DNA from: an uncultured Pseudacidovorax sp.
GTDB lineage: Bacteria > Pseudomonadota > Gammaproteobacteria > Burkholderiales > Burkholderiaceae_C
Reading direction: 5' to 3'
DNA length: 64,000 nucleotides
Assembly: GCF_913773995.1 (NCBI RefSeq)
Contig: NZ_CAJYES010000250.1
Span: 1 to 64,000 of the forward strand
Part shown: piece after piece, positions 6,921 to 25,466 of the stretch
Numbering within the stretch: the first letter of the stretch is position 1
Layout: every line of letters starts with the position of its first letter
Program-made: the position numbers and the translations under genes
Notes under the pieces: model-generated
The model's database searches: none
What the model saw: the letters and a program-made list of their open reading frames with translations, nothing else
What the model was told of the DNA's origin: nothing

Positions 6921-8828
6921 TCAACGCTTGTTGGAGATGTCTTCGGCGATCTTTTGGGAGAACGCCTCTACCGACATGACCCCGAGATCGACATTGCCTC
7001 GGGCGCGCACCGCGACGGCACCAGCTTCCTTTTCCTTGTCGCCGACGACAAGGATGTAAGGAAGCTTTTGCAGCGAATGCTTTCGTATTTTATACGTGAT
7101 CTTCTCGTTCTGCAGATCCAGCTGCACTCTAAACCCTTGATGCCGCAGCGTTTTCGCAACTTCGGCGGCGTAGTCGGCCTGAGCGTCCGTGATATTGAGC
7201 ACCGAAATCTGCACCGGCGCGAGCCAAACGGGCATGGCGCCGGCGTGGTGCTCGATCAGCATCCCGATGAAACGCTCGAGGCTGCCCACGATGGCGCGGT
7301 GCAGCATGACTGGGTGCGCCCGCCCGCTCGACTCAGTCACGTACTCGGCGCCGAGGCGCTCGGCCATGTTGAAGTCGACCTGCATCGTGCCGCATTGCCA
7401 CTGCCGGCCGATGGCGTCCCGCAGCGTGTACTCGATCTTGGGCCCATAGAACGCGCCATCGCCTGGGGCAATGACGAAGTCGACGCCGGAGCGGCGAAGC
7501 GCCTCCATCAGCGCGCCCTCGGCCTTGTCCCAGAGTTCGTCCGAACCGATGCGGTGCTCGGGCCGCGTGGCGACCTTGTAGAGGATGTCCGTAAAGCCGA
7601 AGTCCGCATACACCTTGAGCAGCTGCGACGTGTAGGCCACGCATTCCTCGAGGATGTGGTCTTCCGTGCAGAAGATGTGCCCGTCGTCCTGCGTGAAGCC
7701 GCGCACGCGCATGATGCCGTGCAGGCCGCCGGAGGGTTCGTTGCGGTGGCACTGGCCGAACTCGCCGTAGCGCAGCGGCAGCTCGCGGTAGCTGCGCAGG
7801 TCGCTCTTGAAGATGAGCACGTGGCCCGGGCAGTTCATCGGCTTGAGCGCGTAGTCGCGCTTCTCCGATTCCGTGACGAACATGTTCTCGCGGTAGTTCT
7901 GCCAGTGGCCCGTCTTCTCCCACAGGCTCTTGTCGAGGATCTGCGGGCCCTTCACTTCCTGGTAGCCCGTGTCCTTGTAGACCTGGCGCATGTACTGCTC
8001 CACGGCCTGCCACAGCGCCCAGCCCTTGGGATGCCAGAAGACCACGCCGGGCGCGACGTCGTCGATGTGGAACAGGTCGAGTTCCTTGCCCAGCTTGCGG
8101 TGGTCGCGCTTCTCGGCTTCCTCGATGCGCTGGATGTACTGGTCCAGCTGCTTCTTGTCGGCCCAGGCCGTGCCGTAGATGCGCTGCAGCTGCTCGTTCT
8201 TGGCATCGCCGCGCCAGTAGGCGCCAGCCAGCTTCGTGAGCTTGAAGACCTTCAGGAAGCGCGTGTTGGGCACGTGTGGGCCACGGCACATGTCCACGTA
8301 TTCCTGGTGGTAGTACAGACCCATGGCCTGCTCGTCGGGCATATCCTCGACCAGGCGCAGCTTGTAGTCCTCGCCGCGAGACTTGAACACCTCGATGACC
8401 TCGGCGCGGGGCGTCATCTTCTTGATGACGTCGTAGTCCTGCGCGATCAGCTCCTTCATGCGCTGCTCGATGGCAGCCATGTCGTCGGGCGTGAAGGGGC
8501 GCTCGTAGGAGATGTCGTAGTAGAAGCCCTCGTCGATCACCGGGCCGATCACCATCTTTGCCGTCGCATAGAGCTGCTTGACCGCATGGCCGACCAAGTG
8601 AGCGCAGGAGTGGCGGATGATCTCCAGCCCCTCGTCGTCCTTCGGCGTGATGATCTGCAGTCGGGCATCGTGGTCGATGAGATCGCTGGCATCCACCAGC
8701 TTGCCGTCCACCTTGCCGGCCACCGTGTTCTTGGCGAGACCGGGGCCGATGGACTGAGCCACTTCGGCGACCGTCACGGGGCCAGGGTATTCGCGGCGGG
8801 AGTTGTCGGGGAGCGTGATCTGGATCAT
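6921..8828 (-). CDS. thrS: Threonine--tRNA ligase
   Basis: 635-residue class II synthetase. The N-terminal TGS domain (1-60) starts [20 protein letters not shown]. The second editing domain has HSCAHL. The catalytic core contains the zinc-ligand segment MNCPGH and motif 2 [15 protein letters not shown]. The C-terminal anticodon-binding domain spans about 530-635. The frame is open eight codons upstream, but the ATG at 8828 matches the family and has AAGG before it. The upstream leader contains a Thr-rich ORF and a terminator 20 bases before the start codon, suggesting transcription attenuation by threonyl-tRNA supply. Confidence 0.98.
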
Positions 8829-8848
8829 GGGAAACCTTGGAGCGGAAA

Positions 8849-8877
8849 ACAAAAAAGCGCGGGGGTGAGCCGCGCTT
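8849..8877 (-). terminator. Terminator hairpin of the thrS leader (attenuator candidate)
   Basis: On the minus strand AAGCGCGG pairs perfectly with CCGCGCTT, followed by TTTTTTGTTTT. It ends about 20 bases before the thrS ATG. The left arm GCGCGG is also complementary to CCGCGC at 8917-8912, just after the leader ORF stop. The terminator arm therefore has a competing partner, as in a ribosome-controlled attenuator. Confidence 0.8.
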
Positions 8878-8919
8878 CGTGCTGGATGAGCGAGCCGGAC
8901 CTGCCGGCGCTGCGCGGGC

Positions 8920-8982
8920 CTACCGGCCGCTTCCTTCAGAAAGCGGACCGAACGATTCGGTGCCTGTAGTTCGCGGTGTCAT
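8920..8982 (-). CDS. Threonine-rich thrS leader peptide (thrL-like)
   Basis: A 20-codon ORF reading [20 protein letters not shown]. Four of the seven residues after Met are Thr (codons ACA, ACT, ACA, ACC), and no other amino acid is enriched there. GAAAGG lies about ten bases before the ATG. The RNA following the Thr codons can form hairpin A:B (CCGCTTTC with GGAAGCGG, 8946-8927). Segment C just after the stop (CCGCGC) can pair with the left arm of the terminator. Ribosome stalling on Thr codons would allow A:B and C:antiterminator. Reaching the stop codon would mask C and let the terminator form. The peptide itself needs no function. Assignment is by inference from sequence and layout. Confidence 0.68.
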
Positions 8983-9032
8983 AACCAGATTGCCTTTCTC
9001 GCCCTTGTTGGTGGACAGACGGTGAGCCGGCG

Positions 9033-9038
9033 ATTGTA
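9033..9038 (-). promoter_or_regulatory. Candidate -10 box of the thrS leader transcript
   Basis: TACAAT on the minus strand, about 50 bases upstream of the Thr-rich leader ORF, in a context (GCTACAATCG) common in this group. No clear -35 hexamer could be fixed. If it is used, the leader RNA before thrS is about 200 bases. Confidence 0.35.
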
Positions 9039-9170
9039 GCGGGCGCCTCGCCTCGCGGCGTTGCTGCCGGTGTCGATGCACAACGCACTGCCAAAAAGGA
9101 TGAAGGCGCTTTCGCAGGCCACAAGAGGCCGCGCCAATCCAGCGCGCGCCCAAACCCGCAGGCCAGAAGC

Positions 9171-9198
9171 AAAAAGGGCCCGGCCAGTGGCCGAGCCC
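9171..9198 (-). terminator. Rho-independent terminator of aceA
   Basis: GGGCTCGGCC and GGCCGGGCCC pair on the minus strand with a short ACT loop, followed by TTTTTG. It starts 28 bases after the aceA stop codon. Confidence 0.85.
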
Positions 9199-9226
9199 CG
9201 CTCCCTGAGCGAACCCGCTGAACCGA

Positions 9227-10558
9227 TCAGTGGAACTGCTCTTCTTCCGTCGAACCCGTCAGCGCCTTCACGCTCGACGAACCGCCCTGGATGACGGTGG
9301 TTACATCGTCGAAGTAGCCGGCGCCGACTTCCTGCTGGTGCGACACGAAGGTGTAGCCCTTTTCGCGGGCAGCGAACTCGGGCTCCTGCACCATCTCGGT
9401 GTAGTGCTTCATGCCTTCGCCGCGGGCATAGGCATGGGCGAACTGGAAGGTCTGGAACCAGTTGATGTGGATGCCGGCCAGCGTGATGAACTGGAACTTG
9501 TAGCCGAGGGCAGACAGGTCTTCCTGGAACGAGGCAATTTGCTTTTCGTTCAGGTTCTTCTTCCAGTTGAACGACGGCGAGCAGTTGTAGCTCAGCAGCT
9601 TGCCCGGACAGGCGGCGTGGACGGCCTGCGCGAACTCGCGGGCGAAGCCGATGTCGGGCACGCCGGTCTCGCACCACACCAGGTCGGCATAGGGCGCGTA
9701 GGCGACACCACGGCTGATGGACTGCTCCAGACCGTTCTTGACGCGGAAGAAGCCTTCCTGCGTGCGCTCGCCCGTCAGGAAGGGCTTGTCATTCGCGTCG
9801 TGGTCGCTGGTGATCAGGTTGGCAGCCTCGGCGTCCGTGCGGGCCAGCACGATGGAGGGCACGCCCATCACGTCGGCGGCGAAGCGCGCGGCGATCAGCT
9901 TCTCGACGGCCTCCTGCGTGGGCACCAGAACCTTGCCCCCCATGTGACCGCACTTCTTGACGGCAGCCAGCTGGTCCTCGAAGTGCACGCCCGCGGCACC
10001 GGCCGCGATCATGTTCTTCATGAGTTCGAAGGCGTTCAGCACGCCGCCGAAGCCGGCTTCTGCATCAGCCACGATGGGCAGGAAGTAGTCGACGAACTCC
10101 GCATCGCCGGGGTTGATGCCACGTCCCCACTGGATCTCGTCGGCACGCTTGAAGGTGTTGTTGATGCGGCGAACCATCGTCGGCACCGAGTCGTAGGCAT
10201 ACAGCGACTGGTCGGGATACATGGTTTCGGAGGTGTTGCCGTCAGCGGCGACCTGCCAGCCCGACAGGTACACGGCCTCCAGGCCCGCCTTGGCCTGCTG
10301 CATGGCCTGGCCGGCGGTGATGGCGCCGAAGGCATTGACGTAACCCTTCTTCGCGCCGCCGTTGATCTTCTCCCACAGCTTTTCGGCACCGCGTTGGGCC
10401 AGCGTGTACTCGATCGGCACCGAGCCGCGCAGACGGACCACGTCGGCGGCGCTGTAGCCACGCTTGACGCCCTTCCAGCGCGGGTTGGTGGCCCAGTCCT
10501 TCTCGAGGGCGCTGATCTGCTGGTCGCGGCTGAGTTGTTCAGTGATGGCTTGAGGCAT
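9227..10558 (-). CDS. aceA: Isocitrate lyase
   Basis: First enzyme of the glyoxylate shunt, cleaving isocitrate to glyoxylate and succinate for growth on acetate or fatty acids. The 443 residues carry the catalytic loop KKCGHMGG at 201-208 with the active-site cysteine at 203. They also carry the substrate-binding [10 protein letters not shown] near 99 and the metal-binding EDQ region near 194. The ATG at 10558 has GGAG eight bases upstream. A TTG five codons earlier is also in frame but would overlap that site. Malate synthase is not nearby. A palindrome overlaps a candidate -10 box upstream, so repression is likely. A strong terminator ends the gene. Confidence 0.98.
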
Positions 10559-25193: not shown

Positions 25194-25261
25194 AGGCGAC
25201 AGCAAGGGCTTTGACCCGCTCCTAGAATCCGCCCGCGGCCGCCTCCGGGTGGCCGCCAAGC

Positions 25262-25428
25262 GTTCTCAGGGCAGGGTGAAATTCCCTACCGGCGGTCATG
25301 GTGGAAGGCGACTTCCGCACGAGCCCGCGAGCGCCCGCCGCTGCAGCCTTGACGGGCCGTGGTGGCGGGGTCAGCAGATTTCGGTGCGATTCCGAAGCCG
25401 ACGGTCACAGTCCGGATGAAAGAGAGCG
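25262..25428 (+). promoter_or_regulatory. FMN riboswitch (RFN element)
   Basis: The conserved RFN segments are present in order: GTTCTCAGGGCAGGGTGAAA with ATTCCCTACCGGCGGT at the 5' side, a variable stem, GATTTCGGTGCGATTCC-like central bases, GCCGACGGTCACAGTC, and GGATGAAAGAGAGCG at the 3' end. It binds FMN and lowers expression of the downstream riboflavin gene. It lies 127 bases before the lumazine synthase start. Confidence 0.95.
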
Positions 25429-25466
25429 CGAGATGCGGCCAGGCTCCTGGTCGCGTGCGGCGTCAT

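Follow-up and report, generated by a model that had tools for sequence, protein, structure and literature searches.

The window analysed here, a stretch of 64,000 nucleotides from an uncultured Pseudacidovorax sp., carries on its minus strand the threonyl-tRNA synthetase gene thrS (8828-6921; TIGR00418, 720 bits). The next gene after thrS is infC (6814-6218, minus strand), which, read by eye, seems to begin with ATC; this infC start, ATCGCTACT, was seen again in relatives in the form of antisense strings. IF3 is known for its rare start codon in E. coli. The region in front of thrS, which we regard as a leader of the controlled gene, contains a series of short elements, all of them on the minus strand. 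Sequence reading and conservation define a leader ORF of 20 codons plus a TAG stop codon (8982-8920), which runs from an ATG at 8982-8980 to the TAG at 8922-8920 and ends 91 bases before the thrS ATG. Thr codons occupy its positions 2, 5, 6 and 8 (ACA 8979-8977, ACT 8970-8968, ACA 8967-8965 and ACC 8961-8959). The ORF is preceded by a Shine-Dalgarno sequence, GAGAAAGG (9000-8993), inside a longer conserved block, and a -10-like box, TACAAT (9038-9033), was read further upstream as part of a putative leader promoter. A strict sigma-70 promoter scan of the window returned no leader promoter, and no -35 consensus was found. The block above the leader ATG, CAAGRGCGAGAAAGGCA (9010-8991, about 17 bases around the Shine-Dalgarno sequence), is conserved well beyond what a Shine-Dalgarno sequence needs, relatives included.

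Several segments of the leader are able to pair with each other. Segment 1 at the start of the ORF (CGCG plus CTACaGGC, 8975-8962) is, with one mismatch in the window, a protector partner of the stop-codon region. The A:B hairpin (8946-8939 with 8934-8927) lies inside the ORF and was recognized by complementarity as well as by covariation in relatives. Segment 2, or C (CCGCGC, 8917-8912), follows two bases past the leader stop codon and represents the putative antiterminator strand; a spacer hairpin (8908-8894) lies between this segment and an intrinsic terminator (8878-8854). The latter is formed by the arms D (AAGCGCGG, 8877-8870) and E (CCGCGCTT, 8862-8855), followed by a T run (8856-8851). 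A terminator scan revealed this element and a separate one at 9199-9175 after the upstream isocitrate lyase gene. Since that gene has its own terminator, the thrS-leader terminator is not the one of the isocitrate lyase gene. The first-pass annotation had described a Thr-rich ORF of 20 codons, a perfect terminator with T run before thrS and the complementarity of A to B and of C to D, and the sequence bears out each of these elements. Folding of the whole leader was no better than that of shuffled sequences (z -0.62 and -1.19) and is uninformative in this respect. The leader gave no match in Rfam, neither at the gathering score nor up to an E-value of 5 over positions 8700-9230 (the Thr leader RF00506 and the T-box RF00230 included). 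Elsewhere in the window, an FMN riboswitch was detected (25258-25431; RF00050, 102 bits).

The conservation of the leader was assessed in a sample of 150 genomes of the family (taken to be Burkholderiaceae of GTDB) with 145 thrS matches; five matches without N-terminus were left out, and 140 upstream regions were read. A short ORF with at least three Thr residues within the first ten codons was present in 111 of these 140 regions compared to 3.3 of 140 after dinucleotide shuffling, and with a threshold of at least four Thr residues the numbers were 83 and 0.4, respectively. The next residues by the same count were Ala (40 regions vs 26 shuffled) and Arg (39 vs 32). An MTPRT-type start block together with a stop codon and a terminator was found in 118/140 regions; the start block is absent in 22 regions, which were kept in the denominators. 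Across the 118 leaders, codons 2 to 5 are almost invariant at the nucleotide level. Codon 6 encodes Thr in 89 of them, with ACA used 19 times, ACC 23 times, ACG 43 times and ACT four times, and this use of all four Thr codons argues for selection on the amino acid. Further Thr residues are found at codon 7 in 59 leaders and at codons 8 and 9 in 28 leaders each. A TANAAT box located 30-115 nt above the leader ATG was shared by 96/118 leaders, while 2.5 were obtained in mononucleotide shuffles, and a Shine-Dalgarno-like site (AAGG or GGAG) precedes the ORF in 114/118. By the rule of our script, a terminator is present in 135/140 regions. The distance from leader start to thrS ranges between 113 and 204 bases in the family regions read (median 144). 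Fourteen of the 22 regions without leader start retain a CGCGG-arm terminator at most 80 nt from thrS (L033, L043, L053, L057, L167, L169, L187, L196, L197, L216, L239, L250, L253 and L255).

The paired segments were compared in an alignment (A1) of 18 close relatives, consisting of 14 of the 15 same-genus loci (L011 was left out) and four named relatives. All five pairs of the A:B plus C:D structure that changed on both sides lie in A:B, a count that is, like the other covariation counts given here, inflated by the relatedness of the sequences, and the covariation score of this structure was reached by 0/500 shuffles. Sliding the structure by -2 resulted in 16 both-side-changed cells compared to 14 in the true register, with 59% instead of 91% of cells paired and a lower score. 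C:D is paired in 96% of cells and almost invariant, and the terminator D:E never varies across the 18 relatives. Two pairs of the spacer hairpin changed on both sides, with 73% of its cells paired. An additional protector pairing, which was not listed in the first-pass annotation, joins the ORF start (CGCG plus CTACCGGC) to the stop codon region (GCCGGTAG plus CGCG); its two helices are 97% and 87.5% paired in the 18 relatives, and no pair changed on both sides. The structure composed of the 1:2 pairing, the spacer hairpin and the terminator showed no clear overall covariation excess, as 30 to 449 of 500 shuffles reached the observed values.

At the level of the family, the D arm of a leader pairs better with its own leader than foreign D arms do in 73/117 cases (p = 3e-4), and a control window showed no such preference (47/117). 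Since CGCG is self-complementary, a part of the pairing between segments is unavoidable. The pairs flanking this core were analyzed with an anchor that was not picked for complementarity, which covered 101 of the 118 leaders after 17 without the CGCG anchor were dropped. For segments 2:3, flanking pair -2 is a standard pair in 61/101 leaders compared to 41.5 in shuffles, a value reached by 0/2000 shuffles; the other seven of the eight flanking pairs showed no clear excess, with 95 to 1924 of 2000 shuffles reaching the observed value. At pair +1, segment 2 carries T in 3/4 leaders whose terminator arm has A instead of G ahead of CGCG, compared to 6/97, a post hoc comparison whose contrast was first seen by eye. 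The best antiterminator match begins at a median of four bases past the leader stop codon in the family, so that a terminating ribosome would cover the antiterminator strand. In 29 leaders accepted by eye, 27 of them not from the family set and two being odd ones within it, the 2:3 and 1:2 pairings did not exceed permutation (p = 0.65 and 0.36, respectively).

The consequences of ribosome position were modelled by masking the ribosome footprint and computing the probability of pairing between D and segment 2 before E is made. The modelled family mean amounts to 0.42 with the ribosome at Thr5, 0.39 at Thr6, 0.12 at the stop codon and 0.15 without ribosome, and the value is higher at Thr5 than at the stop in 98/118 leaders. 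Shuffling of segment 2 still left a family mean of 0.30 at Thr5, and the real segment gave a higher value in 63/118 leaders (p = 0.005). Total pairing of D, used as another stall test, changed in the expected direction in 78/118 leaders. For the leader of the window itself, the modelled probability of D:segment 2 pairing at Thr5 is only 0.14; without ribosome, D is predicted to pair mainly with the ORF start (0.68), and total D pairing is 0.85 at Thr5 and at the stop alike, which does not separate the two states.

We consider it very probable, at roughly 0.88, that the thrS leader is a ribosome-mediated transcription attenuator sensing threonine supply. Direct support comes from the ORF, the conservation of its Thr codons, the promoter-like box, the terminator, the complementary segments and the covariation among relatives; we infer the translation of the leader, the stalling, the read-through and the direction of the response. 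RNA polymerase would start near 9026 and make about 175 bases of leader, from which a ribosome would translate the leader peptide of 20 codons. If charged tRNA-Thr is ample, the ribosome should reach the stop codon and cover segment 2 (C), allowing D:E to form and thrS to be turned down. Under a shortage of charged tRNA-Thr, the ribosome is expected to stall on the early Thr codons and to cover segment 1, leaving C free to pair with D; thrS would then be transcribed, probably together with infC and the genes after it. Without any ribosome, segment 1 may pair with the stop-codon region and C, and termination would again be favoured. Leader-peptide attenuation had already been put forward in the first-pass annotation, and the comparison with relatives supports it, with a response direction deduced from the arrangement of the segments and a modelled C:D pairing that is weak in the window. 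The annotation's expectation of conserved Thr codons holds, as the 118 leaders retain them while varying freely among synonymous codons. As to its covarying segments, A:B covaries in five pairs and C:D contributes one flanking pair in the family, whereas C:D hardly varies and D:E never varies in the 18 relatives. Transcription of thrS from a start below the hairpin, which would have spoken against attenuation, is made less likely by the -10-like box above the leader (96/118).

Alternatively, the leader could act on translation, through coupling or re-initiation at thrS, instead of on transcription termination. Re-initiation at leader genes has indeed been proposed to raise the translation of the next gene, as stated in the accessible part of PMC4833913. 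We nevertheless regard this as improbable, because leaders start 113-204 bases before thrS and a terminator with T run lies between the leader stop codon and the gene; the 91 bases between leader stop and thrS ATG in the window are presumably too far for coupling.

The attenuator reading is further supported by the specificity of the leader start. The 16-mer TTATGACACCGCGAAC occurs in one copy each in 109/150 genomes of the family (reversed-pattern control: 0), and 106 of the 109 copies fall in the thrS upstream regions read. The remaining three belong to genomes with a missing or partial thrS match (broken assemblies), where they again lie just before a thrS start. A search across the phylum detected the 16-mer in 15/398 genomes, every one of them from the order, which was represented by 33 genomes (10/12 of the family and 5/21 others), while the reversed 16-mer gave one match across the 398 genomes. 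In the Pseudacidovorax genome of the window, it is unique at no mismatch, with one further site at two mismatches. That the hairpin is a mere terminator or roadblock and the ORF a chance reading frame is very unlikely: 14 of the 22 family regions without leader start keep a CGCGG-arm terminator near thrS, so that the hairpin alone can persist, but the upstream isocitrate lyase gene already has its own terminator, Thr codons are retained in 118 leaders despite free synonymous choice, and the 16-mer is found only at thrS across 150 family genomes.

Leaders of this kind are not confined to the family. Among 69 upstream regions taken from the remaining families of the order, 18 contained a Thr-rich ORF by the same criterion of three or more Thr residues in the first ten codons, compared to 1.8 in shuffled sequences, and the leader sequences differ from that of the family; acceptance by eye gave 26/69 leaders, which come from 18 families and include two with a single Thr. 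Examples of their peptides are MTPRTTTTICERR, MNTNTTRTTTTRHT, MSFRTTTTGTLNLG and MQLNRTTTTS; the script's rule places a terminator behind each of these leaders. Some other members of the order have no leader at thrS (e.g. L145, L147 and L150). The same 69 regions showed a Val-rich ORF signal (27 vs 4.9 shuffled), which we ascribe to the misreading of an upstream tRNA-Val gene as an ORF; inspection by eye showed that thrS is often immediately preceded by a tRNA-Val gene, both in the order's other families and in further orders of the class (L026-L030, L264-L303 and L312-L330). Among named thrS rows, 23/80 have the start block, with genera including Variovorax, Comamonas, Acidovorax, Hydrogenophaga, Roseateles, Rhizobacter, Rubrivivax and Paucibacter; for Polaromonas, it is present in one of two named rows. 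A different Thr mini-ORF (MSTTIAHR-like, also MRTT and MDTT) was seen by eye in 8/12 named rows assigned to Xanthomonadales, one of the 12 being titled only Pseudomonadota (mini-ORF rows L068, L070-L072, L074, L076, L078 and L086; likewise L306-L308). A terminator-like hairpin follows this mini-ORF in 7/8 named rows by the script's rule.

In E. coli, the loop of the thrS operator mimics an anticodon. We searched for comparable hairpins with six pairs and a 9-base loop carrying NGT (the Thr anticodon) at loop positions 4-6, at most 60 bases before thrS; spans of 90, 40 and 60 bases were counted. Such an NGT-loop hairpin, which we take to be an E. coli-type thrS operator, occurs in 26/44 regions belonging to other orders of the class, where the next triplet class reached 6, or in 26/47 once three Xanthomonas-like rows without hairpin (L306-L308) are added. 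In the family (140 regions) and the rest of the order (69 regions), its frequency within 60 bases was at background. With the 40-base span, the counts were 16/44 in other orders, 3/140 in the family and 0/69 in the order's remaining families. The hairpin is present in each of the 34 Pseudomonas-type named rows, with an unclean control in which another triplet class reached 33. The rows concerned are L309-L352 (other gammaproteobacterial orders) and L077-L134.

A tree of 57 ThrRS proteins placed the window, Xenophilus, Variovorax, Comamonas and Aquincola together with Xanthomonadaceae and Pseudomonas (support 100/100); Acidovorax and Roseateles fall apart from this clade, as do almost all remaining rows of the order. 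L145, a long-branched row from another family of the order, is found on the side of the window lineage. This grouping touches thrS at 8828-6921 and rows L060-L067 and L068-L086. Leaders of the window clade (Xenophilus, Variovorax, Comamonas and Aquincola) share the MTPRT type with Acidovorax and Roseateles. It seems that the thrS enzyme was replaced in the window lineage and the leader was kept; as the tree is unrooted, we infer the direction of this replacement.

These data also bear on autorepression, in which ThrRS would bind a tRNA-like operator in the leader in the fashion of E. coli. There, ThrRS binds two hairpins of its own mRNA and prevents 30S binding, according to the available part of PMC3858243, and the hairpin with a Thr-anticodon-like loop precedes thrS in the 26/44 regions of other orders. 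For the leader studied here, this is nonetheless scarcely to be expected: hairpins in the family are at background (11/140 vs 13 for the commonest triplet class), NGT lies outside the six commonest classes in the 69 regions from the remaining families of the order, and the window lineage has the same type of leader despite a ThrRS from a different clade. Returning to the attenuator, we lean towards the view that thrS control in Pseudomonadota has been exchanged between two unrelated mechanisms, a tRNA-mimic operator recognized by ThrRS and a ribosome-read leader-peptide attenuator, and that the attenuator, being independent of the enzyme, outlasted the replacement of thrS in the window lineage by one related to Xanthomonas/Pseudomonas. 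The MSTT leader of Xanthomonadales would possibly have arisen a second time, separately from the leaders of Burkholderiales and, at a greater distance, of Streptomyces. The thrS locus is a case in which regulatory element and enzyme seem to differ in their history.

The best-known modes of thrS control in bacteria are the translational operator of E. coli and the T-box of Bacillota. Leader-peptide attenuation as such is classical, and the E. coli synthetase operon pheST is subject to transcription attenuation through a leader peptide rich in the cognate amino acid; pheST differs from the thrS leader in its amino acid (Phe), operon and lineage. In a T-box, uncharged tRNA binds the RNA directly. 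The presence of T-boxes at thrS of Bacillota is documented in the accessible portion of PMC12452182; there, too, an RNA element couples thrS to the charging of tRNA, but no leader peptide is involved. The E. coli thrS operator also provides feedback on thrS, whereas there, as far as the available text of PMC3858243 goes, the ThrRS protein on the hairpins blocks the 30S subunit, and neither leader peptide nor terminator takes part. The Thr leader of Rfam, RF00506 (named in PMC3766115), senses threonine through Thr codons of a leader peptide as well, but sits at a biosynthesis operon, and the window leader has no Rfam match. In the main text of this 2013 survey of Rfam motifs, which covers Burkholderia and Ralstonia, the word thrS is absent (PMC3766115). 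A further parallel is the predicted cysS leader uORFC-8-2 of Rhodobacterales (PMC8632094), in which a short ORF with codons for the amino acid of the downstream synthetase precedes an intrinsic terminator; as presented in the accessible sections, it has two Cys codons near positions 14-15 and belongs to cysS of alphaproteobacteria, in contrast to the Thr codons and thrS of the window.

The literature searched, with most subscription papers and supplements outside its reach, yielded no leader-peptide case for thrS of Pseudomonadota. The first-pass annotation had gone further in knowing of no described case for this gene at all, which does not stand: in Streptomyces lividans, a leader peptide with two Thr codons, thrL, was reported before thrS and proposed from RNA-seq as a threonine-dependent attenuator, next to leaders listed at alaS, trpS and leuS (PMC8079986, available part). 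With thrL in print, the leader-peptide idea is not new for thrS. Both systems place a leader peptide with Thr codons ahead of thrS, but thrL, as described in the accessible part of that report, encodes the peptide MKRVRPFLETTPGFVPAR with two Thr at positions 10-11 on a leaderless transcript of an actinobacterium, without a clear U-rich terminator. Compared by eye only, MKRVRPFLETTPGFVPAR and the leader peptide of the window share no sequence. For the leader described here, the analysis pinpoints the ORF, the terminator and those base pairs that would be targets for mutation. While thrL, the Thr leader so far proposed at thrS, has two Thr codons and no clear terminator in the portion of PMC8079986 available, the Thr-rich thrS leader of the window comes with a clear terminator and is kept across a large part of the family and in further families of its order.
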